Made by a program: the position numbers and the translations under genes. A model generated the notes under the pieces. It saw only the letters and a program-made list of their open reading frames with translations. It had not been told where the DNA came from and ran no database searches. A stretch of DNA of 64,000 nt from Hydrogenovibrio halophilus DSM 15072 (lineage in GTDB: Bacteria > Pseudomonadota > Gammaproteobacteria > Thiomicrospirales > Thiomicrospiraceae): contig NZ_KB913033.1 of the NCBI RefSeq assembly GCF_000384235.1, positions 1,309,164 through 1,373,163 on the forward strand, read 5' to 3'. How positions within the stretch are numbered: position 1 is the stretch's first letter; each line of letters begins with the position of its first letter. Positions 9,202-63,455 of the stretch are shown piece after piece.

Positions 9202-10029
9202 TTATTTCAGTGCAAAGTCGGTCCAGACCGGCGCGTGGTCGGACGGTTTTTCCATGCCGCGAATGTCGTAGCAGACGCCGCTGTCGGTGGCCTTTTTGAC
9301 CAGGCCTGGTGTCGCCAGCAGGGTGTCAATGCGCAGGCCGCGCTTGGGCTCGGCCTGAAAACCACGGGAGCGGTAATCAAACCAGCTGAAAGTGCGGTCT
9401 TCGTCCGGGTGAATCTGACGGAACGAATCTTTCAGCCCCCAGCCGATCAGCGTCTGCCACCATTCGCGCTCTTCGGGCAAAAAGCTGGCTTTGCCATCGC
9501 GCAGCCAGCGTTTGCGGTTCTGTTCGCCAATGCCGATGTCTCTGTCTTCCGGCGAAATATTGAAGTCGCCCATCACAATCACATTGTCCTCGGGCGAACA
9601 GGCCTGGTTGAGATAGTCCATCAGGTCCTGATAGAACTTTTCCTTGGCCGGAAATTTGGTCGGATGTTTGCGGTTTTCGCCCTGCGGGAAATAGCCGTTC
9701 AATACCTTGAGCGTTTCGCCGCCGGGGGTTTCAAAGCGACCGATGATCATGCGTTTTTGCGCTTCGTCCGTGTCGTGATCCCAGCCGTACTGGTAATCGA
9801 CCAGCTGCACCTGATCCGGATCGAACAGCAGGGCCACGCCGTAATGGGTTTTCTGGCCCATAAACACAGCCTGATACCCCAGTTTTTCCAGGTCCTGAAC
9901 CGGAAATTCATGGTCCTGGACCTTGGTTTCCTGCAGACCGATGATGGCCGGATGCAGTTCGGCTTTGAGCGCATCCAGCTGATGCAGACGCATGCGCACG
10001 CTGTTGACATTGAATGAGACGATTTTCAT
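9202..10029 (-). CDS. xthA: Exodeoxyribonuclease III (AP endonuclease)
   Basis: The 275-residue product begins MKIVSFNVNSVRMRLHQLDAL and shows LQETKVQDHEFP with the metal-binding Glu, GDFNISPEDRDIG, YRSRGFQAEPKRGLRIDTLL and the terminal SDHAPVW. These are the catalytic motifs of the ExoIII/APE family. It removes abasic sites and 3' blocks in base excision repair. Compared with the E. coli enzyme, the segment LATPGLVKKATDSGV occupies a variable stretch and is encoded by an exact dispersed palindrome followed by AAAAA. A second, imperfect copy is at 9599. Confidence 0.95.
   Translation of the reverse strand: MKIVSFNVNSVRMRLHQLDALKAELHPAIIGLQETKVQDHEFPVQDLEKLGYQAVFMGQKTHYGVALLFDPDQVQLVDYQYGWDHDTDEAQKRMIIGRFETPGGETLKVLNGYFPQGENRKHPTKFPAKEKFYQDLMDYLNQACSPEDNVIVMGDFNISPEDRDIGIGEQNRKRWLRDGKASFLPEEREWWQTLIGWGLKDSFRQIHPDEDRTFSWFDYRSRGFQAEPKRGLRIDTLLATPGLVKKATDSGVCYDIRGMEKPSDHAPVWTDFALK
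9299..9310. repeat. ACCAGGCCTGGT palindrome copy 3 (inside xthA)
   Basis: Exact core with left flank CTTTTTG, so the xthA codons read Thr-Pro-Gly-Leu-Val-Lys-Lys on the minus strand. Confidence 0.9.
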
Positions 10030-16239: not shown

Positions 16240-16828
16240 GGCACAGTCAAACCGGTTGAACAATCGAAGTGGACACTATAGCAAAAATCGTAAAAACACT
16301 TGGCAAAACCTGTCAGGCCGGTTCTGGGTGGCTTTGATTGGACTGACTCTGATGGGGTTTTTTGTGAGTACGCAGGCGCAATCCGAAACGCAGAGGCTGG
16401 ATGCCTGGCAGTTGCAGCAAGCGCAGAACCTTGAGGCCATTGGGCAACAGGCCGCGCAGACCGGGCATCCGGTCATGCTGCTGTTTACCCGTTTGCACGG
16501 CGGCGGCTCCGGCACCTTGAAAGAGGAAGCGATTTTGCCGGTGGTGGAAAACGGCCTGCTGGACGGCTACGCAGTGATGCTTGAAGTCACCCTCAACTCC
16601 GGGGGAGAGGTGATCGATTTTTATGGCGAGCCGGTCAGCAAACAGACGCTGGCGGACTGGTACAACATCAGCAAATACCCGACCCTGATCACGCTGGACC
16701 CCTCCGGTGAGGAAGTCAGTGAGCGCATGGAAACCGCGGGGGCCTATGAGTATGTGCCGCATCGGATCAAGAAAATGGTCAATCAGGGCCTGCAGGCCAT
16801 GGGCCAGAGCAAGCGCCTGGATTTTTAA
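16238..16828 (+). CDS. Secreted thioredoxin-fold-like protein without CXXC
   Basis: About 196 residues. A membrane/signal segment (FWVALIGLTLMGFFVSTQAQS) is followed by a domain that reads like a thioredoxin fold: NLEAIGQQAAQTGHPVMLLFTRLHGG, then KEEAILPVVENGLLDGYAVMLEV and WYNISKYPTLITLDPSGEEV with the cis-Pro position. The usual CXXC is absent; the place is occupied by LHGGGSG, and the mature part has no Cys, so redox activity is unlikely. The start is uncertain because the ATG here overlaps the tmcA start on the other strand (shared CATG at 16237-16240). It precedes nfeD by 30 bp and may be its operon partner. Confidence 0.7.
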   Translation: MAQSNRLNNRSGHYSKNRKNTWQNLSGRFWVALIGLTLMGFFVSTQAQSETQRLDAWQLQQAQNLEAIGQQAAQTGHPVMLLFTRLHGGGSGTLKEEAILPVVENGLLDGYAVMLEVTLNSGGEVIDFYGEPVSKQTLADWYNISKYPTLITLDPSGEEVSERMETAGAYEYVPHRIKKMVNQGLQAMGQSKRLDF

Positions 16829-18948: not shown

Positions 18949-18960
18949 ACCAGGCCTGGT
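18949..18960. repeat. ACCAGGCCTGGT palindrome copy 7 (upstream of mtfA)
   Basis: Exact core with flanks GATTTTG and AAAAAAGG, intergenic. It ends 9 bp before the chosen ATG of mtfA, so it would lie in the 5' untranslated region or ribosome-binding zone. No other Shine-Dalgarno sequence is apparent than AAAAAAGG at its edge. Confidence 0.9.
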
Positions 18961-19918: not shown

Positions 19919-20947
19919 ATGAGATTTTCACGCACGGTCACAATGTTGTTGGGGGTGGCGTTGGCCTGGCCGCTGAATATGGCCACCGCGTCCGCGGAAG
20001 AAGTCAACGTCTATTCGGCGCGCAAGGAGCAGTTGATCAAGCCGTTGCTGGAGGAGTTCAGCCGGGCAACCGGGATCGAAGTCAACCTGATCACTTCCAA
20101 AGCCGATGCGTTGCTCAAGCGTCTGGAGACCGAAGGCGAGAATACCCCGGCGGACGTGCTGATTACCACCGATGCCGGACGTTTGCACCGGGCGAAACAG
20201 GCAGGCGTGTTGCAGCCAGCCATCACCGAAGCTTTGCAAAAGCAAGTACCGGCCAACTTGCAGGACAAGGATCATTACTGGTTGGGGCTGACCACGCGGG
20301 CACGTGTGATTGTGTACGCCGAGGACCGGGTGGGCCCTTCTGAATTGAGTACCTATGAAGCCCTGGCCGATGACAAATGGCGCAATCGCATTTGCATTCG
20401 CTCGTCCAATAACATTTACAACCAGTCACTGGTGGCGTCGATGATCGCGCACAAGGGGGCGGAAGCCACGGAAGAATGGGCCAAAGGCCTGGTGAAGAAC
20501 TTTGCGCGCAAACCCGCCGGGGGCGACCGCGATCAGGTCAAGGCGGTGGCAGCCGGACAATGCGACATTGCCGTGGTCAATACCTACTATCTGGGTCAGA
20601 TGATTCACAGTTCCGACCCGGCCCAAAGAGAGGCGGCGGCTCAGATCGACATTTTCTGGCCCAATCAGGATGACCGTGGCGCACACGTGAATGTGAGCGG
20701 CATTGCCATTACCAAAGCGGCGGACAACAAAGCCAATGCACTGAAACTGGTCGATTTCATGTTGTCGCCTGAAGCCCAGGCCTGGTATGCCGAAGTCAAT
20801 CATGAATACCCGGCTGTTGAAGGGGTCGCATGGAGCGACACTCTGAAAGACTGGGGTCAGTTCGAGTCCGATGCCTTGAACCTGAGCCGTCTGGGCGAAC
20901 TCAATACTCAGGCGCTGCAGATCATGGACCGGGCCGGATGGCGCTGA
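19919..20947 (+). CDS. fbpA: Fe3+ ABC transporter periplasmic binding protein
   Basis: The 342-residue precursor starts MRFSRTVTMLLGVALAWPLNMATASA, a signal peptide cut before EEVNVYSARKEQLIKPLLEEF. The mature part has the FbpA/FutA pattern: NTYYLGQM, with the paired Tyr that ligate ferric iron, and GVLQPAITEALQKQVPANLQDKDHYWLGLTTRARVIVY. The start at 19919 has AGGAG upstream and gives a proper signal peptide; the frame is open further back. It captures Fe3+ in the periplasm for the permease and ATPase that follow. A one-mismatch dispersed palindrome (20775) encodes AQAWYAE near the C-terminus. Confidence 0.94.
   Translation: MRFSRTVTMLLGVALAWPLNMATASAEEVNVYSARKEQLIKPLLEEFSRATGIEVNLITSKADALLKRLETEGENTPADVLITTDAGRLHRAKQAGVLQPAITEALQKQVPANLQDKDHYWLGLTTRARVIVYAEDRVGPSELSTYEALADDKWRNRICIRSSNNIYNQSLVASMIAHKGAEATEEWAKGLVKNFARKPAGGDRDQVKAVAAGQCDIAVVNTYYLGQMIHSSDPAQREAAAQIDIFWPNQDDRGAHVNVSGIAITKAADNKANALKLVDFMLSPEAQAWYAEVNHEYPAVEGVAWSDTLKDWGQFESDALNLSRLGELNTQALQIMDRAGWR
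20775..20786. repeat. Palindrome variant CCCAGGCCTGGT (inside fbpA)
   Basis: One mismatch from the core; read as Ala-Gln-Ala-Trp. In this context PEAQAWYA is also a common binding-protein motif, so it may be coincidental. Confidence 0.5.
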
Positions 20948-27757: not shown

Positions 27758-29602
27758 ATGACAACGCAAACGGACAATGAATCATCGCGCTTGAGTGACC
27801 CGGGTCAGTGGGACCTGTATCATTTTGATGCGGTGATTGTGGGCGCTGGCGGCGCCGGGCTGCGTTCGGCCCTGCAGTTGGCGCAAAGCGAGCAGAAAGT
27901 GGCGGTGGTGTCCAAGGTGTTTCCGACGCGTTCGCACACTGTGGCCGCGCAAGGCGGCATCAACGCCGCGCTGGGCAATGTCAGCGACGACAACTGGCAC
28001 TGGCACATGTACGACACCGTCAAAGGCAGCGATTATCTGGGCGACCAGGACGCGATTGAATTCATGTGTCGCGAGGCGACCGAAATCGTCCGGGAACTCG
28101 AGCATTTCGGGGTGCCGTTTTCGCGCACCGACGCCGGTAAAATCTACCAACGTCCCTTTGGCGGACAAAGTCAGGACTTTGGCGCGTCTCAGGCCACGCG
28201 CACCTGCGCCGCCGCCGACCGCACCGGCCACGCCATTTTGCACACCCTGTATCAGCAGAACCTGCGCGCTGGTACCACCTTTTTCAACGAAGCCTTTGCC
28301 ATCGATCTGGTCAAGGACACCACCGGTCAGATAGCAGGCCTGGTGATTTTGGACATTGCCAGCGGAGAGACCCGACTGTTGCGGGCGCGTTCGGTGGTGT
28401 TGGCCACCGGCGGGGCCTGTCAGTTGTTTGAAACCAACACCAATGCCAAAATCAATACCGGCGACGGGCTGTCCATGGTGCTGCGTGCCGGGTTGCCGTT
28501 GCAGGACATGGAGTTCTGGCAGTTTCACCCCACCGGCGTGGCGGGCAAAGGCATGTTGCTGTCCGAAGCCGCGCGGGGCGAGGGCGGTTTGCTCCGCAAT
28601 GGCGATGGCAAAGCCTTTATGGTGGACTATGCGCCCAATGTCAAAGACCTGGCTTCGCGTGACGTGGTCGCCCGGGCGATTGCGGTGGAGGTCAAGGAAG
28701 GCCGTGGCTGCGGGCTGAAAAAAGATCATGTGCTGCTGGATCTGACCCATCTGGACGAGGAGGTGATCAAAAAGCGCCTGCCCGGCATTCGTGACATCGC
28801 GCTCACCTTTCTGGGGCTGGACATGTGTGACAGCCCGATTCCGGTGTATCCGACCGCGCACTATATGATGGGCGGCATCCCTACCAATTTTCACGGTCAG
28901 GTTTTGACCCAGACGGCGGCGGGCGAACCCACGCCGGTTGACGGGCTTTATGCGATTGGCGAATGCGCCTGCGTGTCGGTGCATGGGGCCAATCGTCTGG
29001 GCGGTAATTCATTGCTGGACATCGTGGTGTTCGGTCGTGCGGCGGCGCGGCATCTGCAAGCCACACTGGCCGAGCACAAGGCCAGCGACTTTTTTGACCC
29101 GGAACTGGAACTGACGCCCGTGGTGCAGCGTCTGGCGCATTGGACGCAAGCGGTTCAGGCGGAAAAACCCGACGCAAACGAGCCATCCGATGATGACAGC
29201 ATCGCCGCGATTCGTCGGGATTTGCAGGCGGTGATGCAGCGTGACTGCGGCGTGTTTCGGACCGAACAGACCTTGTCCGAGTTGTGCGATACCTTGAACA
29301 ACTTGCAGCAACGTCTGCACCGGGTCACGCTTCAGGACGCCGGGCTGGCGTTCAACCTGGAGCGGCTGGAAGCGATGGAACTGGAAAACCTGATGACGCT
29401 GGCGTTTGCCACCGCGCATTCGGCCAGAGCCCGTACCGAAAGCCGCGGCGCCCATTCGCGCATGGATTACCCGGAGCGAAATGACCAGGCCTGGTTAAAA
29501 CACAGTCTGTATTTTCGGCAAGACCATGCCCTGACCTACAAACCGGTCAACCTGACACCGCTGACGGTGGACGGGTTTGAACCCAAAGCCCGCGTTTATT
29601 AA
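27758..29602 (+). CDS. sdhA: Succinate dehydrogenase flavoprotein subunit
   Basis: The 614-residue product has the FAD dinucleotide motif (FDAVIVGAGGAGLRSALQLAQ), the covalent flavinylation His in TRSHTVAAQGGINAALGN, the substrate loop MEFWQFHPTGVAGKGMLLSEAARGEGG and the catalytic Arg region in RDVVARAIAVEV. It oxidises succinate to fumarate on the cytoplasmic side of the inner membrane. It is 12 bp before sdhB. Near the C-terminus, NDQAWLKHSLYF is written across an exact dispersed palindrome at 29484. In other SdhA proteins this position is usually also aromatic and basic (for example xxxWLKHTL), so the element may sit at a pre-existing match. Confidence 0.96.
   Translation: MTTQTDNESSRLSDPGQWDLYHFDAVIVGAGGAGLRSALQLAQSEQKVAVVSKVFPTRSHTVAAQGGINAALGNVSDDNWHWHMYDTVKGSDYLGDQDAIEFMCREATEIVRELEHFGVPFSRTDAGKIYQRPFGGQSQDFGASQATRTCAAADRTGHAILHTLYQQNLRAGTTFFNEAFAIDLVKDTTGQIAGLVILDIASGETRLLRARSVVLATGGACQLFETNTNAKINTGDGLSMVLRAGLPLQDMEFWQFHPTGVAGKGMLLSEAARGEGGLLRNGDGKAFMVDYAPNVKDLASRDVVARAIAVEVKEGRGCGLKKDHVLLDLTHLDEEVIKKRLPGIRDIALTFLGLDMCDSPIPVYPTAHYMMGGIPTNFHGQVLTQTAAGEPTPVDGLYAIGECACVSVHGANRLGGNSLLDIVVFGRAAARHLQATLAEHKASDFFDPELELTPVVQRLAHWTQAVQAEKPDANEPSDDDSIAAIRRDLQAVMQRDCGVFRTEQTLSELCDTLNNLQQRLHRVTLQDAGLAFNLERLEAMELENLMTLAFATAHSARARTESRGAHSRMDYPERNDQAWLKHSLYFRQDHALTYKPVNLTPLTVDGFEPKARVY
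28333..28344. repeat. Palindrome variant AGCAGGCCTGGT (inside sdhA)
   Basis: One mismatch from the core; read as Ile-Ala-Gly-Leu-Val. Confidence 0.5.
29484..29495. repeat. ACCAGGCCTGGT palindrome copy 8 (inside sdhA)
   Basis: Exact core with flanks AAATG and TAAAAC; read as Asp-Gln-Ala-Trp-Leu-Lys. Confidence 0.9.
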
Positions 29603-30334: not shown

Positions 30335-30622
30335 ATGGCGCTCAGCCATTTGGAACGGATCAAAATGCTCAAGCTGGCCTGTCGGCGCGGCAATGCCGAG
30401 ACCGAAGCCCTGTTGCTCGCCTACTGGCAGGATTTGCGCCAACAGGCCCAGACAGGCGCTCTCAGCCACCCAGCCCTGGACAAAACCCTGACCCAGTTCG
30501 AACAACTGCTGCAAACCAATGATCAGGATTTAATGCAATGGTGCCTGCGTCCCGACACCGCTCCCGACGACTGGCAAGACTTGATTGAAAAGATCAGGGC
30601 GGTGTATTTGACCGATCGTTGA
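30335..30622 (+). CDS. sdhE: Succinate dehydrogenase flavinylation factor SdhE
   Basis: A 95-residue protein with LERIKMLKLACRRGNAETEALLLAYWQDL. It carries the SdhE-type RGN(x)E motif (here RRGNAETE), which is required for attaching FAD to SdhA. The C-terminal part is helical (TQFEQLLQTNDQDLMQWCL). It completes the sdhCDABE operon. The 3' end overlaps the convergent symporter gene by 29 bp. Confidence 0.9.
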   Translation: MALSHLERIKMLKLACRRGNAETEALLLAYWQDLRQQAQTGALSHPALDKTLTQFEQLLQTNDQDLMQWCLRPDTAPDDWQDLIEKIRAVYLTDR

Positions 30623-31958
30623 AGTAGCGTTTGGCTTCAGTTCGTACTCTTGGGGCGAGCAGCAGGGTGGCGGTCATGGTGGGGATGGCCATCAGGCCGT
30701 AAAAACCGATGAGGAAGTAGAATACGATTTCAATCGACAGCACCGCGCCCAGAAAGACTGTGGTCAGGTAAAAGTATTTAAAAATGGCCGCTTTGTCTGC
30801 GCCGAACAGATAACCAAAACATTTGTGACCGTAGTACCAGAAGGTAAACACGGTGGTGAGGCTCAAAACCACCACCATCAGCGACACGCCCATGGTGCCG
30901 AATACGCCGATGCCTTCGCCAAATGCGCTCAGGGTCAGGTCAATGCCACTGAGTTCGGTGTCGGGGGTGAGCACGCCGGTGGCCAGGATCACCAGTGCGG
31001 TGGCGGTGCAGATGATCAGGGTATCGATCACCGGCCCCAAGCTGGCGACCAGTCCTTCGCGGATCGGTTCGTCGGTTTTGGCCGCGCCGTGCGCCATCAC
31101 TTCGGTGCCGATCCCGGCTTCATTGGAAAAGGCGCCGCGACTGATGCCAACGATCATCACCCCCAACAGCCCGCCATACATCGCATCGGGTGACCAGGCC
31201 TGGTCAAAAATGGTCATGACAATGCCCGGTAACTCGCCCACAAATTGCGCCAGCACACTGACCGTCATCAGCAGATACAGCGCCACCATGGCCGGCACCA
31301 ATGTGACCGCCACTCTGGCCAGTCGTTGCAGCCCGCCCCAGATCACGCTGGCGACCAGTCCCACCAGCATCAGGCCCAGAAGGCTTTGCCAGATCAGGTC
31401 CGGTTGCGAAGACGGTGCGAGCGGGAGTTGGCTGGTAATGACCTGGCTCAGCTGATTGATCTGAAAAGCGGGCAGGGTGCCGAGCAAACCGGCGATGGCA
31501 AAAAACACCGCCAGCGGTTTCCATTGGCGTCCCAACCCCTGTTCGATGACGTACATGGGGCCGCCTTGCAGTTGCCCATTGGAGTCATGACCGCGGTACA
31601 TGACCGCCAGAGAGCCGGTAAAGAATTTGGTGGAAATGCCCACCAGTGCCGACAGCCACATCCAGAAAATCGCGCCCGGGCCGCCGGCCGACAAAGCCAG
31701 AGCGACCCCGGCCAGATTGCCCAGCCCCAGTGTCCCGGCCAAAGCCGCTGACAGGGCCTGACGATGGGAAATGTCCCCCGCGGCATTGGGGCGGTCATAG
31801 CGCCCGGTGAGCACCGCCAGTGAATGGCGCGCATAACGGAACGGATAGAAACGCCCCTGCAAGGTCAGCCAGAGGCCACCACCGACCAGCAGCACCAGCA
31901 TGGGCGGGCCCCAGATAAAGCCAACGGCGTCTTGCAGAAATTGTGACAGGGTTTGCAT
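30594..31958 (-). CDS. Sodium:alanine symporter (AGCS family)
   Basis: The 454-residue polytopic protein has the AGCS pattern: FIWGPPMLVLLVGGGLWLTLQGRFYPFRY at the N-terminus, then SAALAGTLGLGNLAGVALALSAGGPGAIFWMWLSALVGISTKF, and ISRGAFSNEAGIGTEVMAHGAAKTDEPIREGLVASLGPVIDTLIICTATALVI. It imports alanine or glycine with Na+. About ten membrane helices are visible. The 3' end runs 29 bp into sdhE. It contains an exact dispersed palindrome (31193) read as IFDQAWSPD. Confidence 0.92.
   Translation of the reverse strand: MQTLSQFLQDAVGFIWGPPMLVLLVGGGLWLTLQGRFYPFRYARHSLAVLTGRYDRPNAAGDISHRQALSAALAGTLGLGNLAGVALALSAGGPGAIFWMWLSALVGISTKFFTGSLAVMYRGHDSNGQLQGGPMYVIEQGLGRQWKPLAVFFAIAGLLGTLPAFQINQLSQVITSQLPLAPSSQPDLIWQSLLGLMLVGLVASVIWGGLQRLARVAVTLVPAMVALYLLMTVSVLAQFVGELPGIVMTIFDQAWSPDAMYGGLLGVMIVGISRGAFSNEAGIGTEVMAHGAAKTDEPIREGLVASLGPVIDTLIICTATALVILATGVLTPDTELSGIDLTLSAFGEGIGVFGTMGVSLMVVVLSLTTVFTFWYYGHKCFGYLFGADKAAIFKYFYLTTVFLGAVLSIEIVFYFLIGFYGLMAIPTMTATLLLAPRVRTEAKRYFNDRSNTPP
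31193..31204. repeat. ACCAGGCCTGGT palindrome copy 9 (inside the symporter gene)
   Basis: Exact core, part of the perfect 16-bp palindrome TGACCAGGCCTGGTCA (31191-31206), followed by AAAAATGG. Read on the minus strand as Asp-Gln-Ala-Trp-Ser. Confidence 0.9.
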
Positions 31959-32055: not shown

Positions 32056-34197
32056 TCAGATCACCTTGAACTGGCGCGAATAGTTTTCCACGTCTTTGGA
32101 CATCTGGTTCAAGCGCTCGCCCGATTCGTTGACCGACTCATTGCCTTTGACCACCTGATTGGCTTCGTGTGTGATCTGTTCGACCTTGTCGCCGATCATG
32201 GAGACCGCCTGTTCGTGCTCTTTCAAAAAGCTCTGAATCTGTTCGATGGCGCGGGTCACATCCTGCGATTTGCTTTCCAGATCCGCGACCGCATCGCCTG
32301 CCGTGTGAGCCAGATCCACGCCCTGTTGCATCTGCTCAATGCTGGTTTGCATGTCGTCGCCCACTTTGCCGATCATGGTCTGAATGTGACCGATCACTTT
32401 GGAAATTTCTTCGGTGGATTGCGAGGTACGCTGCGACAGGCCACGCACTTCGTCGGCCACCACCGCAAAGCCTCGACCGTGTTCGCCGGCGCGGGCCGCT
32501 TCGATCGCCGCATTCAACGCCAGCAGGTTGGTCTGTTCGGCAATGTCTTCGATGGTGTTCACAATGCCGCCCACATCCTGCGACATGGTTTTGAGCTGAT
32601 CAAAGTTTTCGGTGGCGTTGGACACGCGCTGGGCCATTTCGTTTAAACTGTCGGCCGACTTGTGCACGGTCCGTGAGCTTTCCACGGCCGCGTTGCGGGA
32701 ATCTTCGGCCAGATGATGCACCTGATCGGATTGATCCGAAATCTGCTCCATGGCCCGGGTCAGTTCTTCCACCGCCACGGCCACGTTTTCGGTGGCGGCC
32801 TTCTGGTTGACCGCCGTCTGGGTGACCGTATCGCTTTGCTCATCCAGATTGCGGGCCGCATCGCTCAGATGCTGGGCATCGTATCCCAGATCATAAATCA
32901 GTTCCCGCAAACGGGTCTGCAACTTGGTCAGCGCATTCATCATGCGTCCGGACTCGTCCTGCGCCATCACCGGGGTTTCAAAGTCCAGATCGCCTTCGGC
33001 CATGCGCTCGGCCACGGCCACCGAACTTTCCAGCCGTCGGGACAGACCCGTGGCCAGGAACCAGACCGCAATCAGTGACGCGCCGATCAATACCAGCATT
33101 GCGCCCTGAACGATCCAGAAATGATGGGTAATGGTGCTGGCCACTTTGCTCAGTGGCACCGACACTTCCAGCGCGCCGCGCACGTCACCCAGCTGCCAGT
33201 CGGTTTTGGGCGAATCCGGGTGGCTGTTGTGGCAGGTGACACACGACTGATCGCTCATGATGTCGGCCACCGCATAGCGAAACACCGGCTCGCCCTGCTG
33301 TTGTTCAATCTGGTAAAACGGGGTTTCGGGTTCGGCCTTCAAAGCCTCCAGCGCGGTCTGCTCAAACGCATCCAGCCGGGTTTCGTCTTTGGTTCGGAAA
33401 TTGAACGGGTCCTGGCTGAACAGGCGCAGTTGACCGCCGTTGTCGCCCATATTGCCCAGCGCGCGCATAAAGCTGGCGGGCAGCGGCAAGCTCAGGCCGT
33501 CCTGCTCATGGCTGATGCCAACGCCCGCTTTCTGGCCCACCGGAATCACATGCTCTGAATAAAACTGGCGCGCGTTCTGCGCGTTTTGAATACTGGATTT
33601 GGCCGCCGCCTTGCCCGCCTCGACAATCACCTGATCACGCAGCGTCAGCCCCTGTTGCCACAGCAACGCCAGCACCAGAAGCCAGATGAGAATCAGTGGG
33701 AAAAAGATTTTGGTTTTGAGCGGCAGGGCAGACAGTTTCTGGCCCCAATGCCAGAACCGACCTTTGACACCATTGGGTACCACGCGTCCCTGCTCCAGAG
33801 TCACGTCGTTTTCTCGATTCATTCGCGCATACAAACGTTCGGCGGCACGAATTTCCGCTTCGGAAGGTTGTACCCGAAAAGACAGATAACCGTTTTTGAT
33901 CGGCACAGCGGTGGCTTTGACCCAATAGTAATCGCCATTCTTTCGACGATTTTTGACCAGACCGCGCCAGAATTTCCCAGCCTTCAGTGTCGTCCAGAAA
34001 TCACGAAACGCCTCTTTGGGCATAAACGGGTGGCGAACCATATTATGCGGGTTGCCCAGCAATTCATCGGACTCATAGCCGGAGGCTTTCTCAAAATCCG
34101 GGTTGACCCGGTTGATGGTACCCACCTTGTCTGTGCGGGTAATAATGGCCTTGTGATCGCCTAATTTATATTCGTGTTCGTTTGTGCTTTGGCTCAT
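32056..34197 (-). CDS. Methyl-accepting chemotaxis protein with PAS and CxxCH sensor domain
   Basis: About 713 residues. The N-terminal cytoplasmic PAS domain ([51 protein letters not shown]) is of the Aer type. After the first membrane helix ([17 protein letters not shown]) comes a periplasmic DUF3365/Tll0287-like domain with [20 protein letters not shown], where CVTCH is a c-type haem attachment motif. A second helix, a HAMP region and the signalling domain with [36 protein letters not shown] follow. This suggests a receptor that senses redox state or gases through haem and PAS. The ATG at 34197 starts the conserved part; an ATG 28 codons upstream is unconserved. Confidence 0.9.
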
Positions 34198-34323
34198 GGT
34201 TTCGTTCCTGCCACTTCGCGGAATTGTCATAAAAACCACACTTTTGTGGTGTTTTTGAAAGCAAAGCAAAGGCCGGGCCAAGTCACAGAAAAATCACATG
34301 CGAAAACCTGCGAAGTGTTTTTG

Positions 34324-34335
34324 ACCAGGCCTGGT
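34324..34335. repeat. ACCAGGCCTGGT palindrome copy 10 (intergenic, MCP/hipB)
   Basis: Exact core with flanks TTTTTG and TAAAAAT, making a near-perfect 24-bp palindrome (34318-34341). It lies between the divergent MCP and hipBA genes. Confidence 0.92.
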
Positions 34336-38187: not shown

Positions 38188-38358
38188 TTAGGAAACGCCG
38201 TCCATTAGCGAAGCCAAAGCCACATCTTCATTATAAACACGATAAAGTGTCAACGGCGGCTCATGCACCGTAATATGAAAAGTGCGGCCTACGCCATCAC
38301 CCAACCGCGCATAGTGCGGTGACCCAATATTCTGGAGGCTTTTTACCAAAAAGAGCAC
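38188..38358 (-). CDS. Short open frame, possible gene remnant
   Basis: On the minus strand a GTG at 38358 opens 56 codons: VLFLVKSLQNIGSPHYARLGDGVGRTFHITVHEPPLTLYRVYNEDVALASLMDGVS. The composition looks protein-like (YARLGDGVGRTFHITVHE), and the frame could extend upstream by DQAWLE through the dispersed palindrome at 38364. I do not recognise it, and no ribosome-binding site is clear. It may be the 3' end of a lost gene. The rest of 38141-38543 contains only the dispersed palindrome and an island repeat. Confidence 0.3.
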   Translation of the reverse strand: MLFLVKSLQNIGSPHYARLGDGVGRTFHITVHEPPLTLYRVYNEDVALASLMDGVS

Positions 38359-38363
38359 TTCTA

Positions 38364-38375
38364 ACCAGGCCTGGT
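38364..38375. repeat. ACCAGGCCTGGT palindrome copy 11 (intergenic)
   Basis: Exact core inside the best long copy: 38356-38383 matches the 28-bp symmetric consensus (CACTTTTG, core, CAAAAGTG) at 26 positions. Confidence 0.93.
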
Positions 38376-38493
38376 CAAAAGTGAGTCATGCTGACAAAGT
38401 GCTGGTGTTGTGGTGTTGGGAAGATTCTTTTTTGATTTGTGCCGAACTGAAATATTTGCGTATATTGCCGATTTATTTTACATTCTTCCTAGA

Positions 38494-40981: not shown

Positions 40982-40993
40982 ACCAGGCCTGGT
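40982..40993. repeat. ACCAGGCCTGGT palindrome copy 12 (3' of the OlsF-like gene)
   Basis: Exact core with right flank CAAAAGTGGG, 10 bp past the stop of the leftward acyltransferase gene at the right border of the island. Confidence 0.92.
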
Positions 40994-41003
40994 CAAAAGT
41001 GGG

Positions 41004-42731
41004 TTAGGTTGACAGCTCCCCGATGTAGCGCTGGAACTTTTTGGGTTTGATTTGTTGGATGTCGACCAGGATCAGGGCGTCGATGCAGTCGCCGAAGTCG
41101 GGGTCGACGCTGAAGTCGATGAAGCGCATGCCGCCTGGTTCGCACAGTTCGGCGTATTGTTTGAACAGGGTCGGTACTTTGACCTGGTATTGTTCCAACA
41201 GCCGGTTGAGTTTTTTGTAGGCCTCTTTGTAGTCGTCCTGAAAGTTTTCTTTGGCCAGTTGCTTGACCTCGTCGGAGGCACGGAACGGTCTCTTGCCCAC
41301 GGCCATGTTGGCATCGTCGCCAAACTGTTCGCTGAAAAAGGCGACGATCAGTTCCTTGGCCACTTGCGGGTAGGCGTCGGACAGGGTGACCGGCCCGTAA
41401 AAGTAACGGATCTCGGGGTGGCGTTTGATGTAGGCGCCGATGCCGTACCACAGATAATCCAGACTGCGTTTGCCCCAGTAGCGGGGTTGCACAAAGCTGC
41501 GGCCCATTTCCAGTGATTGTGGCAGCCGCTCGATCAATGGCGGGTTGAAGTCAAACAGGCTGGGGGTATAGAGCCCTTCCATGCCCGAGCGTTCCAGAAT
41601 TTGCGCGCATTCGCCAATGCGATAAGCGCCCACGATTTCCAGTTCCTGATCGTCCCACAATACCAAATGCCGAAATTCGGCATCAAACGCATCCAGATCG
41701 TAGGATTCGCCGGTGCCTTCCTCGACGGTGCGAAAGGTCAGTTCGCGCAGTCGACCGATTTCGCGCATCACCGGGGAATCGGCTTCGTAAGCAAACAACA
41801 CGATTTTTTTGCCATCGGCGGTTTCGCCCAGCAATTCGCCTTTTTTCAGGTCTTCGCGCAGGGCGCGGCGATCCATTGGATGCGCCAGGGTGTTTTCGGT
41901 TTCAAACGGGGTTTTGGCCGCCGCCTTTTTGGGATTGGTCAGACGGTACACGTGCTTGCGCATCAGCTTGGCGATTTTTTTGTCGGGCAGGTCGAGCGCG
42001 GCAATGGATTTGAACGGAATCAGGCGGCCAATGTGAAACGCAATCTGCTGGTCGTTTTTATTGAACATTTCCTGCACCAGCATCAAGGTGCCCAGCGGTT
42101 TGTAGACGGAGGAAAGGCCGTAAAACAGGGCCGAATTGCGCGCATCGATGTTGATGGGCAAAACCGGGGCGCTGGTTTTTTTGGCCAGTTTCAGAAAGCC
42201 GCTTTTCCATTCGCCGTCGCGCACGCCATTGGGTCGGATGCGCGAGACTTCGCCCGCCGGAAAGATGATCACCGCTTCTTCGTTTTCCAGCGCCTGAACC
42301 ATGGCCTTGAATTGCTGTTTGTAGCTGGCTTTGGCCGAGAGGTTGTCCACCGACAGAAACAGCGATTCAAACGGTTCGACTTTGGAAAGCAGTTCGTTGG
42401 CGACGATGCGCACGTCCGGGCGCACGCTGCGCACCAGTTTCAGAATCGCCAGTCCGTCGAGCGAGCCGATGGGGTGATTGGCGACAATGACCACACGTCC
42501 GTCGGAGGGAATGTTGTCGAGCTGGCGGTGGTTCACCTGGTAGGAAAAGTTAAAATGCTCTAAACTCTTGTCCAAAAACGCAAAGCCGCGCAGGTGCCGG
42601 TTCTGTTCGATGAAGCCATTGATCTGGTCTTCGTGGGTGAGTTTTTTCAGAAACCCCAGCAGGGCACCCGAACCGGGCTTTTGTTTGAAGTCGGGGTATT
42701 TGTCGAGAATGGTGGCTTCGATGTCGAGCAT
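41004..42731 (-). CDS. Bifunctional acyltransferase, OlsF-like (ornithine lipid synthesis candidate)
   Basis: About 575 residues in two domains. The first (about residues 60-270) is a lysophospholipid acyltransferase with NHPIGSLDGLAILK (HX4D motif) and IIFPAGEVSRI (glycerol-phosphate/acceptor motif). The second (about residues 310-560) is a hemolysin/GNAT-type N-acyltransferase (IGRLRELTFRTVEEGTGESYDLDAFDAEFRHLVLWDDQELEIVGAYRIG). This N-terminal OlsA-like plus C-terminal OlsB-like fusion is the design of OlsF, which makes ornithine lipids in two steps. I start at 42731 (MLDIEATILDKYPDF) because the upstream extension would read through a dispersed palindrome as PGLV. Confidence in the exact lipid product is moderate. 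Confidence 0.8.
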   Translation of the reverse strand: MLDIEATILDKYPDFKQKPGSGALLGFLKKLTHEDQINGFIEQNRHLRGFAFLDKSLEHFNFSYQVNHRQLDNIPSDGRVVIVANHPIGSLDGLAILKLVRSVRPDVRIVANELLSKVEPFESLFLSVDNLSAKASYKQQFKAMVQALENEEAVIIFPAGEVSRIRPNGVRDGEWKSGFLKLAKKTSAPVLPINIDARNSALFYGLSSVYKPLGTLMLVQEMFNKNDQQIAFHIGRLIPFKSIAALDLPDKKIAKLMRKHVYRLTNPKKAAAKTPFETENTLAHPMDRRALREDLKKGELLGETADGKKIVLFAYEADSPVMREIGRLRELTFRTVEEGTGESYDLDAFDAEFRHLVLWDDQELEIVGAYRIGECAQILERSGMEGLYTPSLFDFNPPLIERLPQSLEMGRSFVQPRYWGKRSLDYLWYGIGAYIKRHPEIRYFYGPVTLSDAYPQVAKELIVAFFSEQFGDDANMAVGKRPFRASDEVKQLAKENFQDDYKEAYKKLNRLLEQYQVKVPTLFKQYAELCEPGGMRFIDFSVDPDFGDCIDALILVDIQQIKPKKFQRYIGELST

Positions 42732-42738
42732 AAAAATA

Positions 42739-42750
42739 ACCAGGCCTGGT
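42739..42750. repeat. ACCAGGCCTGGT palindrome copy 13 (upstream of the OlsF-like gene)
   Basis: Exact core with left flank TAAAAATA, 7 bp before the chosen ATG, the same position relative to the start as in mtfA. Confidence 0.9.
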
Positions 42751-42851
42751 AGTTGCCAATCAATTGGATGATTTTGGATCACGCACATGACCGGCGCGTG
42801 ACGAATCAATGAGACTTTTATGAATGTGATCAGAAAAGAGGACTCCCATAG

Positions 42852-43725: not shown

Positions 43726-43752
43726 AATTCCTGAGTGTTTTACTCAGGAATT
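43726..43752. repeat. 11-bp perfect inverted repeat in the selO leader
   Basis: AATTCCTGAGT, a 5-base loop GTTTT, and ACTCAGGAATT. It ends 12 bp before the selO ATG, just upstream of the GGGAG ribosome-binding site, with no T-run, so it is not a terminator for the upstream gene. Confidence 0.8.
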
Positions 43753-43764
43753 GTCGGGAGCCTC

Positions 43765-45246
43765 ATGCCGTTTCAGTCGCGTTTTACCCAATTGCCGTCG
43801 GATTTTTATCAGTTCAATGCCCCGGAGCCGATGCAGGATGCGCATCTGGTCGCGGTCAATGAGGCCCTGCGCACGCAACTGGGTCTGACTTTGAAAGATG
43901 AAGCGTTGCTGGCTCTGACTTCGGGGCAGCTGACGCATCCGCAATTGGCCGAGCTGGGATTGCGTCCGTTGGCACAGAAATACACCGGGCATCAGTTTGG
44001 CTACTACAATCCGCATTTGGGCGATGGGCGCGGGGTGCTGCTGGGCGAGTGGCAAGCGCCGGACGGCAAGGTATGGGATTTGCATCTCAAGGGGGCAGGA
44101 CGCACCCGGTTTTCGCGCAATGGCGATGGCCGGGCGGTGCTGCGTTCCAGCATCCGTGAATTTCTGGCCTCCGAGGCGCTTTACGGTCTGGGCGTGCCCA
44201 CCACCCGTGCGCTGGCGATTGCGACCAGTGACGAGATGGTGCAACGTGAAATTCTGGAGCCACGGGCGACCCTGTTGCGGCTGACGCCTACGCACATCCG
44301 TTTCGGCCATTTTGAATGGGCGGCGCGACAAAGCGCGACCGCTCGCGATGCGTTGCTGGGCTATGTGATCGATCATTATTTTCCTGAGGCGCAGGGGCAG
44401 TCCTTAAAGCACCAGGCCTGGTACTTTCTGCATTCAGTGTGTCAGCGTACCGCGCGTTTGATCGCGCATTGGCAGGCGGTCGGGTTCAATCACGGGGTGA
44501 TGAATTCCGACAATATGTCGATTTTGGGTGAGACTTTCGATTTCGGGCCCTACGCGTTTTTTGACGATTTTCAGATCGGATTTGTGTGCAATCACTCGGA
44601 CACGGACGGGCGCTATGCTTACAGCGAACAGCCGCTCATCGGCCATTTCAACTGCGCCTTGCTGGCCGATGCTCTGGGCGCGTATTTGAGTGAGGACGAG
44701 CAGAAAAAAGCGCTGGAGAGTTACGTGGACGAATACAACCGCGTGGCGCTGGCACAGATGCTGGTCAAACTGGGACTGGCGGAGCCACCAAAAGAGCGCA
44801 ATCAGCCCGAAGCCGAGGTGCAGAAAGGCGACCGGGCGCTGGTGGCCGATGTGTTTATTATGATGGATCAGCAGCGTGTGGATCACAGCCTGTTTTTCCG
44901 GCGGCTGGCGTGGCTGGGCACCGAACGCGAACCGGAATTGATGGCGCTGCTGGCCGAGCCGGACGCTTTTGCTGACTGGTTTGAATCGCTGCAACAGCGG
45001 ATCTCTGAGGCAGGTTTGTCCCAGACCGACTGGCAGGCACGGATTCGAGCGGCCAACCCGTCGATTGTGTTGCGCAGCTACATCGCTCAGGAAATCATTG
45101 ATGCCGCCGAAAAGGGCGATTACGCGCCTTTGACACAATGGACCCAGGCGCTGCAACGCCCGTTTGACGACCATCCCGAACTGGCCGAGTATCAGCAACC
45201 GCCCAAGCCAGCCCAAAAAAGCATGGTGCTCAGTTGTTCGTCGTGA
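43765..45246 (+). CDS. selO: Protein adenylyltransferase SelO (YdiU)
   Basis: The 493-residue pseudokinase that transfers AMP to proteins. Features are the KYTGHQFGYYNPHLGDGRGVLLGEW segment, DLHLKGAGRTRFSRNGDGRAVLRSSIREFLASEALYGLGVPTTRAL, GVMNSDNMSILGETFDFGPYAFFDDF (with the Asn/Asp metal residues) and the C-terminal VLSCSS with the Cys in place of selenocysteine. SelO protects against redox stress by AMPylating metabolic enzymes. The ATG at 43765 has GGGAG before it; ten open codons upstream pass through the leader hairpin. An exact dispersed palindrome (44411) is read KHQAWYF. Confidence 0.94.
   Translation: MPFQSRFTQLPSDFYQFNAPEPMQDAHLVAVNEALRTQLGLTLKDEALLALTSGQLTHPQLAELGLRPLAQKYTGHQFGYYNPHLGDGRGVLLGEWQAPDGKVWDLHLKGAGRTRFSRNGDGRAVLRSSIREFLASEALYGLGVPTTRALAIATSDEMVQREILEPRATLLRLTPTHIRFGHFEWAARQSATARDALLGYVIDHYFPEAQGQSLKHQAWYFLHSVCQRTARLIAHWQAVGFNHGVMNSDNMSILGETFDFGPYAFFDDFQIGFVCNHSDTDGRYAYSEQPLIGHFNCALLADALGAYLSEDEQKKALESYVDEYNRVALAQMLVKLGLAEPPKERNQPEAEVQKGDRALVADVFIMMDQQRVDHSLFFRRLAWLGTEREPELMALLAEPDAFADWFESLQQRISEAGLSQTDWQARIRAANPSIVLRSYIAQEIIDAAEKGDYAPLTQWTQALQRPFDDHPELAEYQQPPKPAQKSMVLSCSS
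44411..44422. repeat. ACCAGGCCTGGT palindrome copy 14 (inside selO)
   Basis: Exact core; read as His-Gln-Ala-Trp-Tyr. Confidence 0.9.
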
Positions 45247-48071: not shown

Positions 48072-48131
48072 ACGTTGTTTCTTTTGTGTTTTTTGTCATT
48101 GTCTACCGGCCTGAACCCGAATGGGTTTTTT

Positions 48132-48143
48132 ACCAGGCCTGGT
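48132..48143. repeat. ACCAGGCCTGGT palindrome copy 15 (upstream of the TonB receptor)
   Basis: Exact core with left flank TTTTTT, 70 bp upstream of the receptor ATG in the gap after the small zinc-regulated gene. Confidence 0.92.
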
Positions 48144-48213
48144 GGTTCTTGCATGTATTGAGTTCTTCGTTTCGCGCCAAGAGCTCGTTATCAATTTTGT
48201 TCAGGAAAATAAT

Positions 48214-50358
48214 ATGAGCGTATTGAGAAAGAAAGTCTTAGCTCAGGCCATTGCTGTGGTCATGATTCAGGCCGCCGCGAGCAATGCGGCGGTATTAGCC
48301 GCGCAAGCCGAGCCAAGCGGACAGGTTGCGTCCAGCCAGACGGAACTGGCCCCTGTGACCGTTTCCGCCTCCCCCATTCATCCGCATCAGGCGTTTGATG
48401 TGCCTTCGCAAATCAACGGTCTGGATGGCGATCACAAACGCGCCGAGCAAAGCGGCTCTCTGGGCGACACGCTGGATGGCATTGCCGGGGTCAATAATCT
48501 GGGCACCGGCGCACAGTCCGGCAAACCGGTGATTCGAGGCATGTCCGGCAATCGGGTGAAAGTGCTGTCCAACGGTCAGGCCACCGATTTTCAGACCTAT
48601 GGCGTGCGTCATCCCGCCAACATCGATCCGTTTCTGGCGGAGCGTCTGGAGGTAGTGCGCGGCCCGCAAAGCGTGTTGTATGGTTCCGAAGCGTTGGGCG
48701 GTGTGGTCAATGTGCTGTCACCCGCGATTCCGTACGAGCGTGATACCCACGGCGAAGTGATGGGTGAATACAACTCGCAGAACCGTGAAAAAGTGGCCGG
48801 GGCCAAGCTCGGCGCTGGGGGCGACAACTTTGGTATTACCGCTGGGTATGTGCAGCGCAAAGCGGACAATATGACCGTGCCGGATGAAAAAGACCGCGCG
48901 CTGTTGACCGGAGAGGTGCCGCATACCAACTACGATAACCGTTCGACGCATATTGGCCTGGGGTATGACGACGATTGGGGCTATGTCGAGTTGCGTCACA
49001 CTCAGTGGATTGCCAAACAGAATTTTGTGGGCATTCACAAGGAAGGTGACCACTTTCATGCCGAGGCCACAGGGCAGCGTTTGCAAAACGACGAAACCCA
49101 GTTGAAAACCGGGCTGTATCTGGACGACTGGACCTTGAAGGCCGATTGGAGTCATACCCAAAATCGACGGGAATCGGCACACGATCTGCCGTATGAAACC
49201 ATGGCCGCCGACAAGGGCACGGACGACTATCTGGACCTTCGGGTCAAACGCGACGATGTGACCCTGGCGCTGGCGCACCCGAAACTGGGCGATTTTGAAG
49301 GCGAAGTCGGCGTGAGTCTGACCGAAAAGGCGCAGACGCTGAAATCCGGTCACTTGGCGCCCGGTGCCGATGTCAGCCAGCAGGCGGTGTATCTGTTTGA
49401 AGAGGCCGACTACGATCGCTGGCTGGTGCAGTTCGGTGCCCGTTACGATCGCCACGAGGTCAAAGCGCCGATCAATGAGGCCAATCATCATTTTGTCGAA
49501 GACGGTTTTTTTGACGACAGCAATAACGAGCGCACCTTTGAGGTCTTTAGCGGCTCCGTGGGCGCGACCTATCAGCTGGCGGACAATTGGGCACTGGCCG
49601 GGTCGCTGGCACGCGGCTATCGCGCACCGAGCATTTTTGAACTTTATGCAGGCGGCGAACACGGCGGGGTGCAGGCGTTTCAGATCGGCAACCCGGATTT
49701 GAAGGAAGAAACCTCCATCAACACCGACTTGTCGCTGCGTTGGCAGGGTGAACAGGCGCAAGCCAGCGCCACCGTGTATCAGAACTGGGTCGACAATTAC
49801 ATTTATCTGGAGCGCACCGGCAACACCGTGACCGGCGAATCGGGCAATTCTCTGGATGAAATGCAGGCTCAACAGACCGATGCGCAAATCCGAGGGCTGG
49901 AGTTGGCCTATCAGCAGCAATTCACCCAGCACTGGTCGGCCGATGCCGCACTGGAAATCATTGATGGGCGCGACACCGACAACAGCCGTGACTTGCCTCT
50001 TATTCCCGCCAATAACCTGCGTTTGGGCGGGAAGTTTCACCCAGCCGATGGCGATGCGCTGAAAAATCAGACCTTGTCGCTGGGGGTGAAACTGGTGGCG
50101 GCCAAAGACGCTGCCGGACAATACGAACCCTTCTCCCAGTTTGACGACAGTGCTACCGGCACCGCCTCAACCGATGCCTACAGTGTGTGGGATCTGGGGT
50201 ATCAGGCGGATGTGAAATGGGACAAACGCACGCTGAAACTGGGGGCCAAAGTCGAAAACCTGTTCGACACCGCCTATGTGGACTTCCTGAATACTTACAA
50301 AGGCTACTCGCTTAACCCCGGACGGAACTTTCAGTTAAACGCAGCGTTGCAGTTCTAG
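48214..50358 (+). CDS. TonB-dependent receptor, ZnuD-like (zinc uptake)
   Basis: The 714-residue precursor has a signal peptide (MSVLRKKVLAQAIAVVMIQAAASNAAVLA), a plug domain (GSLGDTLDGIAGVNNLGTGAQSGKPVIRGMSGNRVKVLSNGQATDFQTYGVRHPANIDPFLAERLEVVRGPQSVLYGSEALGGVVNVLS) and a beta-barrel ending in NPGRNFQLNAALQF with the terminal Phe. The short loop HKEGDHFHAEATG resembles the His/Asp cluster of ZnuD. Together with the Zur box this suggests zinc import. It depends on the TonB system at 12-14 kb. A terminator follows at 50380. Confidence 0.88.
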   Translation: MSVLRKKVLAQAIAVVMIQAAASNAAVLAAQAEPSGQVASSQTELAPVTVSASPIHPHQAFDVPSQINGLDGDHKRAEQSGSLGDTLDGIAGVNNLGTGAQSGKPVIRGMSGNRVKVLSNGQATDFQTYGVRHPANIDPFLAERLEVVRGPQSVLYGSEALGGVVNVLSPAIPYERDTHGEVMGEYNSQNREKVAGAKLGAGGDNFGITAGYVQRKADNMTVPDEKDRALLTGEVPHTNYDNRSTHIGLGYDDDWGYVELRHTQWIAKQNFVGIHKEGDHFHAEATGQRLQNDETQLKTGLYLDDWTLKADWSHTQNRRESAHDLPYETMAADKGTDDYLDLRVKRDDVTLALAHPKLGDFEGEVGVSLTEKAQTLKSGHLAPGADVSQQAVYLFEEADYDRWLVQFGARYDRHEVKAPINEANHHFVEDGFFDDSNNERTFEVFSGSVGATYQLADNWALAGSLARGYRAPSIFELYAGGEHGGVQAFQIGNPDLKEETSINTDLSLRWQGEQAQASATVYQNWVDNYIYLERTGNTVTGESGNSLDEMQAQQTDAQIRGLELAYQQQFTQHWSADAALEIIDGRDTDNSRDLPLIPANNLRLGGKFHPADGDALKNQTLSLGVKLVAAKDAAGQYEPFSQFDDSATGTASTDAYSVWDLGYQADVKWDKRTLKLGAKVENLFDTAYVDFLNTYKGYSLNPGRNFQLNAALQF

Positions 50359-51057: not shown

Positions 51058-51069
51058 ACCAGGTCTGGT
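51058..51069. repeat. Palindrome variant ACCAGGTCTGGT (upstream of groES)
   Basis: One mismatch from the core (T for C at the centre). With T6 on the left and A6 on the right it makes a 24-bp near-perfect palindrome (51052-51075). It lies about 200 bp before groES. Confidence 0.85.
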
Positions 51070-53298: not shown

Positions 53299-53369
53299 GT
53301 TTATTTATGGGTAAGGTGGCTCGTGCTAAAATGCGGTTTTACCCAACAAATTGAAATATGGATGGCTGG

Positions 53370-54431
53370 ATGACACAGGCAAAAATCAAAATCGGGATTG
53401 TCGGCGGCACCGGGTTTACCGGCGTTGAATTGCTGCGTATGTTGAGCACGCACGATCAGGTGCAGGTAGATGTGATCACCGCGCGTTCCGAAGCCGGGAT
53501 GCCGGTGGCGGAGATGTTTCCCAATCTGCGCGGGGTGACCGATCTGGTGTTCCGTGAACCCGAGCTGGAAAGTCTGAGCCAGTGTGATCTGGTGTTTTTT
53601 GCAACGCCGCATGGCGTGGCCATGGAGATGGCTCCGGCGCTGGTCGAAGCCGGGGTGCGCGTGATCGATCTGGGCGCGGATTTCCGTCTGGAGGATCTGG
53701 ACGTCTGGTCGCAGTGGTATGGGATGGAACACAGTGCCGAAATTCTGATGAGACGGGTGGCATACGGCTTGCCGGAATGGTATCGACAGGCCATCAGTCA
53801 GGCCAGAGTCATCGCCAATCCGGGCTGTTATCCCACCGCCATTCTGCTGGGGGCGCTGCCGTTTCTCAAAGCAGGCCTGGTCAAAAGCGACGGCATTGTG
53901 GCCGATGGCAAATCCGGCGTCAGCGGGGGCGGCCGCGGAGCCAAGGTGGCGATGCTGGGCGCGGAAATGAGCGAAAGCTTCAAGGCCTATGGCATCAGCG
54001 GCCATCGTCATCTGCCGGAAATTCAGGAGAAGGCGTCGCAGGTGGCGGAAAAACCGGTGTCTGTGACCTTTGTGCCGCATCTGGTGCCGATGGTACGGGG
54101 CATGGAAACGACCCTGTATCTGCCGCTGACCGACCCCGATTCGCCGCAGTCGGAGGTGGCTGCGCTGCAGTCGCTGCTGGAGGCGACCTATGCCGACGAA
54201 CCGTTTGTGGACGTGATGCCGCCGGACTCTTTGCCGGAAACCCGCAGCGTGCGTGGCTCCAATCTGTGTCGGCTGAGTCTGTCTCGGCCGCAAAACGGGA
54301 ATACACTGGTGGTGACGTCGGTGATCGACAATCTGGTCAAGGGCGCGGCCGGGCAGGCGATTCAGAATATGAACATTCTGTTTGGCTGGCCCGAAGACAA
54401 AGGCCTGCAACAGATCGGGCTGATGCCTTAA
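53370..54431 (+). CDS. argC: N-acetyl-gamma-glutamyl-phosphate reductase
   Basis: About 353 residues: IKIGIVGGTGFTGVELLRMLSTHDQVQVDVITARSEAGMPVAEMFPNLRGV at the NADP-binding N-terminus, FFATPHGVAMEMAPALVEAGVRVIDLGADFRL, the catalytic Cys motif VIANPGCYPTAILLGALPFLKAGLV, and GKSGVSGGGRGAKVAMLGAEMSESFKAYGISGHRHLPEI. It performs the third step of arginine synthesis. The ATG at 53358 is four codons upstream and also possible; a TGCTAAAAT -10 element is at 53324-53332. Its stop codon TAA lies inside the left end of the 224-bp repeat element. A one-mismatch palindrome (53870) encodes KAGLVKS. Confidence 0.94.
   Translation: MTQAKIKIGIVGGTGFTGVELLRMLSTHDQVQVDVITARSEAGMPVAEMFPNLRGVTDLVFREPELESLSQCDLVFFATPHGVAMEMAPALVEAGVRVIDLGADFRLEDLDVWSQWYGMEHSAEILMRRVAYGLPEWYRQAISQARVIANPGCYPTAILLGALPFLKAGLVKSDGIVADGKSGVSGGGRGAKVAMLGAEMSESFKAYGISGHRHLPEIQEKASQVAEKPVSVTFVPHLVPMVRGMETTLYLPLTDPDSPQSEVAALQSLLEATYADEPFVDVMPPDSLPETRSVRGSNLCRLSLSRPQNGNTLVVTSVIDNLVKGAAGQAIQNMNILFGWPEDKGLQQIGLMP
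53870..53881. repeat. Palindrome variant AGCAGGCCTGGT (inside argC)
   Basis: One mismatch from the core, with right flank CAAAAGC as in the full consensus; read as Lys-Ala-Gly-Leu-Val-Lys. Confidence 0.6.
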
Positions 54432-54686: not shown

Positions 54687-54698
54687 ACCAGGCCTGGT
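54687..54698. repeat. ACCAGGCCTGGT palindrome copy 16 (upstream of erpA)
   Basis: Exact core with right flank AAAAAGTG, 115 bp upstream of erpA and close to its probable promoter (TTGTTACAAT at 54723-54732). Between this and the coding sequence the region 54432-54812 holds only this, copy A above and the promoter. Confidence 0.92.
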
Positions 54699-63443: not shown

Positions 63444-63455
63444 ACCAGACCTGGT
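63444..63455. repeat. Palindrome variant ACCAGACCTGGT (upstream of plsC)
   Basis: One mismatch from the core (A for G), with right flank CAATTT. It lies between the gmhB stop and the plsC ribosome-binding site (TAGGAG). Confidence 0.7.

Follow-up and report, generated by a model that had tools for sequence, protein, structure and literature searches.

The palindrome at 38356–38383 of the window (the whole stretch of 64,000 nucleotides analysed here) raises the question of why a sequence lying between genes should be symmetrical over about 28 bp, and why its 12-bp centre should recur within genes nearby. The letters of the window read CACTTCTA-ACCAGGCCTGGT-CAAAAGTG and agree with the first-pass annotation, which had described symmetry over about 28 bp with two mismatches. 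From this and similar copies, that annotation had proposed selection for a protein-binding site of about 24–28 bp and not just for a 12-bp methylation or restriction motif. By analogy with known systems, we consider it probable that the palindrome and its A/T arms represent this genome's dialect of a DNA-uptake-sequence system belonging to the Thiomicrospira/Hydrogenovibrio/Thiomicrorhabdus family.

Within the window, ACCAGGCCTGGT occurs 16 times exactly and seven times with one mismatch (Table 1). Of the arms described beforehand, the left half CACTTTTG is indeed perfect at 14067 and the right half CAAAAGTG at 40982, and the arm at 54687, AAAAAGTG, is a near match. The copies at 34324 and 51058 do carry T and A arms; the latter has one core mismatch (ACCAGGTCTGGT). 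Exact copies lie inside xthA and a tmcA-like gene, whereas argC contains only a one-mismatch form (53870), the exact copy at 54687 lying downstream of that gene. A search of the window against Rfam gave nothing above the gathering score.

Table 1. The extended palindrome, copies of its core and two of the genes concerned, in window positions; 'kept' means that the core is unchanged in the relative G005
Feature	Positions	Strand	Remarks
28-bp extended palindrome	38356–38383	none	Core 38364–38375; two symmetry mismatches; intergenic
Exact core	893–904	none	Within ORF 282–1160 (−)
Exact core	1373–1384	none	Within PBP1A-family gene 1222–3750 (−)
Exact core	9299–9310	none	Within xthA (9202–10029, −); kept
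tmcA-like gene	13984–16263	−	NCBIfam match below cut-off
Exact core	14067–14078	none	tmcA-like gene; left arm perfect (CACTTTTG); core of G005 differs by two substitutions
Exact core	14901–14912	none	Within tmcA-like gene; no alignment to G005
Exact core	15402–15413	none	Within tmcA-like gene; kept, aligned piece about 67 % identical
Exact core	18949–18960	none	At gene boundary (18924 / 18946)
Exact core	29484–29495	none	Within sdhA (27758–29602, +); kept
Exact core	31193–31204	none	Within agcS-family gene (30594–31958, −); kept
Exact core	34324–34335	none	Intergenic; T/A arms
Exact core	40982–40993	none	Directly beyond olsF stop end; right arm CAAAAGTG perfect; kept
Exact core	42739–42750	none	Within olsF (41004–42809, −); kept
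Exact core	44411–44422	none	selO/ydiU-family gene (43735–45246, +); kept; in other species sites elsewhere in gene
TonB-receptor-like ORF	48121–50358	+	NCBIfam matches below cut-off
Exact core	48132–48143	none	Start of TonB-receptor-like ORF; kept
Exact core	54687–54698	none	Intergenic, downstream of argC; right arm AAAAAGTG
One-mismatch core	4782–4793	none	
One-mismatch core	9597–9608	none	
One-mismatch core	20775–20786	none	
One-mismatch core	28333–28344	none	
One-mismatch core ACCAGGTCTGGT	51058–51069	none	TTTTTT/AAAAAA arms; exact in G005
One-mismatch core	53870–53881	none	Inside argC (53358–54431, +)
One-mismatch core	63444–63455	none	Exact in G005

The word is vastly over-represented in the genome to which the window belongs (G000; 2,356,686 bp), with 515 exact copies where base composition would give about 0.19, and none of the reversed-pattern control. 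The motif was aligned from 546 kb of this genome (23 % of the total, including the window and the search loci), copies fewer than 24 bases from the end of a stretch being dropped; this sample holds 127 exact copies, and 37 one-mismatch copies where 1.6 would be expected. Counted outwards from the core, position −1 is uninformative, T stands at −2 in 73 % of the exact copies and A or T at −3 to −5 in 84–89 %; positions −6 and −7 are weaker, C stands at −8 in 51 %, and there is a slight preference for A/G at −12. The smooth fall-off to 14 bp that had been suggested was thus not seen, since the strong positions −2 to −5 are followed by a separate peak at −8 and only a weak preference at −12. The frequency of A/T at −6 to −2 reaches 0.80 in the 254 site arms, whereas 267 decoy ACCAGG words give 0.47 (P 4e-46); it remains 0.78 when only the 170 arms of coding sites are counted (P 3e-32 against decoys). 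C at −8 is found in 130 of the 254 arms (P 1e-15). Flank information above that of the decoys means that the site spans about 28 bp; taken separately, coding and noncoding copies both show this information. CACTTTTG, put forward earlier as the tendency of the left side, matches the consensus only in part, because C at −6 is depleted (13 %); G at −1 reaches only 35 %.

A simple ORF caller places 85 of the 127 sampled copies in coding and 39 in noncoding DNA, three being partly coding; with the last excluded, the noncoding copies are over-represented (39/124, where 7.7 % of the DNA is noncoding). T at −2 is found in 66 % of coding and 88 % of noncoding copies, and C at −8 in 52 and 51 %, respectively. 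The nearest gene end is a stop codon for 31 of the 39 noncoding copies; an excess between convergent genes (P 0.10) and a deficit between divergent ones (P 0.07) are not significant, each taken alone. The sites are more evenly spaced than at random, the coefficient of variation for the first 100 being 0.73 against 0.99 ± 0.10 (P 0.0004), with a single gap of less than 500 bp where nine were expected. The 85 coding copies are spread unevenly over the three codon phases (46, 25 and 14), favouring one, and are read most often as CCA GGC CTG, that is, PGL.

Between species, the core is conserved far above the surrounding DNA. Of the 16 window copies, seven gave no alignment to G005; among the nine that did, in aligned pieces mostly about 80 % identical, the core is unchanged in eight, compared with 12.0 % of 8,974 control 12-mers of equal GC content (P 3e-7). 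Where the core is exact in only one of the two genomes (14067, 51058 and 63444), the difference consists of substitutions. An alignment of 28 selO genes, in which the Hv_SC-1 sequence is incomplete, has sites in four columns, and at column 580 different dialects occupy the same position of one gene: CCAGGCCTGG is present in G002 and G009, the reverse complement of an asymmetric word in G010 and G001, and neither in G000. Column 512 holds ACCAGGCCTGGT, read as YQAW, in four sequences labelled Thiomicrospira; most others have other residues there, and Thiomicrorhabdus chilensis has QAW together with a near-match. In selO no insertion accompanies the words, whose appearance goes together with changes in the protein.

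The relatives differ in the word that they carry, and the dialects are mutually exclusive and mostly built on a shared CCAGG..TGG frame. Seven of the 11 genomes of the window's genus (g1) are rich in CCAGGCCTGG, and some members have no copy of the window's own word. The asymmetric TCTRCCAGGYTGG, preceded by AAAA, is present in 314, 358 and 315 copies in G010, G001 and G004, respectively, split almost evenly between the strands (140/174, 166/192 and 139/176), and is absent from G000. G007 has neither of these words; in its sampled parts the word is AAAAATCGCCAGGGGTGG, and the top 12-mer falls in 11 of 30 4-kb bins, against a maximum of four in a Markov simulation. In the 18 CCAGGGGTGG copies of this genome an A-rich pair recurs some 13 bases ahead of CCAGG and resembles a second outer segment. 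Asymmetric words are thus found in four of the 11 genus members, while the word of G000 is palindromic. A genome of another genus, G047 (g3; 60 kb of contig 1 sampled), has the palindromic ACCGGCCGGT, often followed by A/T, its top 12-mer falling in nine of 15 4-kb bins. In total, the family has at least five spellings (ACCAGGCCTGGT, CCAGGTTGG, CCAGGCTGG, CCAGGGGTGG and ACCGGCCGGT), four of them in one genus. All dialect words except that of G047 share the frame CCAGG, one or two bases, TGG, to which the g1 words add a preceding A/T tract; the exception keeps only GGCC between the shared outer bases. In several genomes of other genera the A/T excess of the flanks is weak or absent (G071, 0.49 against a background of 0.54; G072, 0.51 against 0.53; G015, 0.57 against 0.53), these figures coming from 6–10 sites each.

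Among the 62 family genomes searched, 27 have at least 100 copies of CCAGGCCTGG (g1, 7/11; g3, 10/32; g6, 9/9; g4, 1/1; g2, g5 and g7 together, 0/9), and 30, most of which were searched for CCAGGCCTGG only, have neither that many nor the other words found here. Within the class sample, high copy number is confined to the Thiomicrospira/Hydrogenovibrio family, the maximum in 365 sampled genomes of other families being 46. No repeated word stood out in samples of G012 (40 kb), G018 (140 kb), G038 (60 kb), G039 (13 kb), G045 (60 kb), G049 (40 kb) or G051 (60 kb), which are small enough for sparse dialects to be missed; G016 was dropped, its only stretch being all N. A SelO search of named genomes returned Thiomicrospira sp. 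WB1 (NZ_LQBN01000001.1) at the head, then Hydrogenovibrio, Thiomicrospira and Thiomicrorhabdus, and then other families; with 35 of the 69 SelO loci scanned, CCAGGCCTGG was present in the fetched stretch of 11 of 23 records from the Hydrogenovibrio/Thiomicrospira/Thiomicrorhabdus group and in none of 12 outgroup records. The NCBI taxonomy places Hydrogenovibrio in the Piscirickettsiaceae and does not list Thiomicrospiraceae, the narrower family name used by GTDB.

USS are evenly spaced, as is the word studied here. Its many copies within and between genes, its dialects with a constant inner core, the adjoining A/T and the noncoding excess lead us to read it as an uptake sequence; the DUS and USS described in the literature likewise number hundreds, within genes and between them, form dialects with a constant inner core, have A/T beside the core and are over-represented outside genes (PMC3630211, PMC1626085, PMC1939737, PMC12616744). 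Like the word here, the USS of Pasteurellaceae combine a short core with A/T-rich flanks, form dialects around a constant inner core and lie mostly in genes, 65 % of copies doing so in Haemophilus influenzae (PMC1939737). Unlike it, they have an asymmetric core with GCGG as inner core and A/T segments on one side, whereas most dialects here are palindromic, are informative on both flanks and have CCAGG..TGG as their usual inner frame. The DUS of Neisseriaceae resemble it in their family-wide dialects, their constant inner core (CTG) and their hundreds to thousands of copies, but are non-palindromic and lack a flanking motif, where the flanks here are informative. Copy number is also lower here than in two Neisseriaceae, for which PMC3630211 gives 2,245 and 3,269 copies. 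The perfect palindrome likewise sets the word apart from known DUS and USS (PMC1939737). Judged by sequence, the word belongs to neither known uptake-sequence family. A 2025 paper gives self-specific DNA uptake as known from two families only (PMC12616744). It is somewhat likely, in our estimation, that Thiomicrospira/Hydrogenovibrio represent a third family that evolved uptake sequences independently, mostly palindromic and with A/T on both sides, and that the switching of the word between symmetric and asymmetric forms within a genus reflects a series of receptor-specificity shifts.

Our working model is that a DNA receptor on the cell surface, which analogy suggests to be a minor type IV pilin, would recognize ACCAGGCCTGGT and its flanking A/T on free DNA, that pilus retraction would import the DNA and ComEC pass it on, and that the DNA of close kin would be preferred as a result of receptor binding. 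As the word is mostly palindromic with A/T on both sides, such a receptor might recognize either strand or work in pairs. Fragments that by chance match better would be taken up and recombined more often, and we infer that molecular drive of this kind could spread the word by point substitution through genes and intergenic DNA; a shift in receptor specificity would then be followed by a genome-wide shift of the word, giving rise to dialects.

The main rival to uptake is a protein that binds the chromosome from within: a dimeric nucleoid-associated, chromosome-organizing or globally regulating protein recognizing the 28-bp dyad every 4–5 kb or so. We regard it as rather unlikely, although dyad symmetry with independent half-sites, conservation in coding DNA and spacing more even than random would all suit a dimer. 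It would be odd for a housekeeping dimer that relatives of the same genus have other, non-palindromic words instead, several family genomes lack such a word in the parts sampled, and the noncoding copies lie nearer to stops than to starts. A DNA-uptake receptor accounts better for dialects that include non-palindromic ones and for copies sited close to gene ends. Hence, of the proposal of a protein-binding site of about 24–28 bp, the part that stands is a dyad of about 28 bp kept within genes; an intracellular protein as its binder is disfavoured. A palindrome made by methylation is also unlikely, and its HIP1-type form, iterated through methylation-directed mismatch repair, is very improbable, for all that the word is a perfect palindrome of high copy number that holds CCAGG and CCTGG back to back. 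Thirty of the 37 one-mismatch variants differ at the two outermost positions of either end, in which they resemble HIP1 as described in PMC4390886, and C5 methyltransferases occur in five of the 11 genomes of the genus (G001, G002, G003 as fragments, G007 and G008). Cyanobacterial HIP1 and the alternate HIPs are, moreover, highly iterated palindromes replaced by another word in some relatives, but they go with matching methyltransferases. A C5 methyltransferase (PF00145) gave no match in G000 or G005; an N6/N4 methyltransferase (PF01555), over the cut-off in six of 14 family genomes, gave none in G000 and in G005 only a piece below the cut-off containing a stop. Enzymes of these two families, the ones searched, accordingly found no support as an explanation for G000. 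Nor are the A/T arms and asymmetric dialects predicted; both lie outside the account of HIPs in the abstract of PMC4390886. The earlier view that the word is more than a 12-bp methylation motif is upheld, inasmuch as methylation leaves the arms unexplained and G000 has no match to the two families.

A word that contains TGG, is abundant and lies within genes recalls the Chi sequence of Escherichia coli, yet a Chi-like recombination signal or a polar segregation signal is scarcely credible for a palindrome, which has no direction. The asymmetric dialects are themselves near strand balance, so polarity of this kind found no support, and the forward copies in G004 show no switch along the genome (25, 23, 34 and 13 per 0.4 Mb and then 44 in the last 0.85 Mb, with the first 100 positions listed). 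Least plausible of all is an RNA hairpin or terminator, or a tiny mobile repeat. The noncoding copies do lie near stop codons, the word has T and A arms, and paired DUS or USS often serve as terminators (PMC12616744); against this, the 3' arm consists of A and not T, two thirds of the sampled copies lie in genes and the core differences between species, being substitutions, argue against a mobile repeat. Complementary cells at −8 to −2 number 354 against 333 ± 17 expected, which is not significant, and the scores of left and right arms correlate at −0.13 (P 0.16), so that this test of covariation lends a hairpin no support. Arms that vary independently argue against a hairpin and are what would be expected of protein contacts.

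Turning to the machinery that uptake would use, ComEC was found in all 14 family genomes searched; since these include the motif-poor G012, G018 and G021, and 10 of 14 controls have it as well, it does not track the motif and is not discriminating. The DUS receptor ComP (ComP_DUS, PF16732) had no match over the cut-off in the same number of genomes (0/14), with one match below it in the motif-poor G018. The GspH family, which covers FimT-like pilins, gave matches only in the motif-poor G012 and G018 and none in the 11 dialect-rich genomes searched. Pilin-like genes with an N-terminal methylation motif are present alike in the motif-rich G000, G005, G010 and G013 and in the motif-poor G018, and no receptor was singled out among them. 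Against the uptake reading stand the failure of ComEC to track the motif, the lack of a receptor candidate from these searches and the weak or missing flank A/T excess in several genomes of other genera, together with the perfect palindrome and a copy number lower than in the two Neisseriaceae. In the literature, searched outside subscription journals and preprints, we found no account of the 12-mer, nothing on highly iterated palindromes in gammaproteobacteria or on uptake sequences in Thiomicrospira, and, for palindromic sequences together with Thiomicrospira, only a paper on a Vibrio phage; a broader search yielded no title on such words in this family among the matches listed, and no published uptake experiment came to light. 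For Piscirickettsia salmonis, which belongs to the same NCBI family as Hydrogenovibrio, there is a study of natural-transformation genes (PMC12955456). If uptake is indeed the function, a third family, of free-living chemolithoautotrophs with a palindromic word, would show uptake specificity to evolve more frequently, and in a greater variety of forms, than has been assumed, and at least five spellings within one family would make the joint change of receptor and genome-wide word directly testable. It would also predict which DNA is able to transform these bacteria.

Other features were also seen in these genomes. In contig 1 of G000, at about 141.5–147.7 kb (L169, 9505–15708), several short ORFs encoding CHPERSRRI-like peptides lie near an ORF (11482–12552 in L169) that we take to be a possible REP-associated transposase, which suggests a second, unrelated family of interspersed repeats. 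In contig 1 of G004 (L055–L058), some words recur about 28 times in three 5-kb bins, where a large repetitive gene presumably lies. The stretch 32431–32553 of the window, in ORF 32056–34281, gave many matches in all five relatives searched, mostly at 73–86 % identity, and probably encodes a domain conserved across a large protein family.
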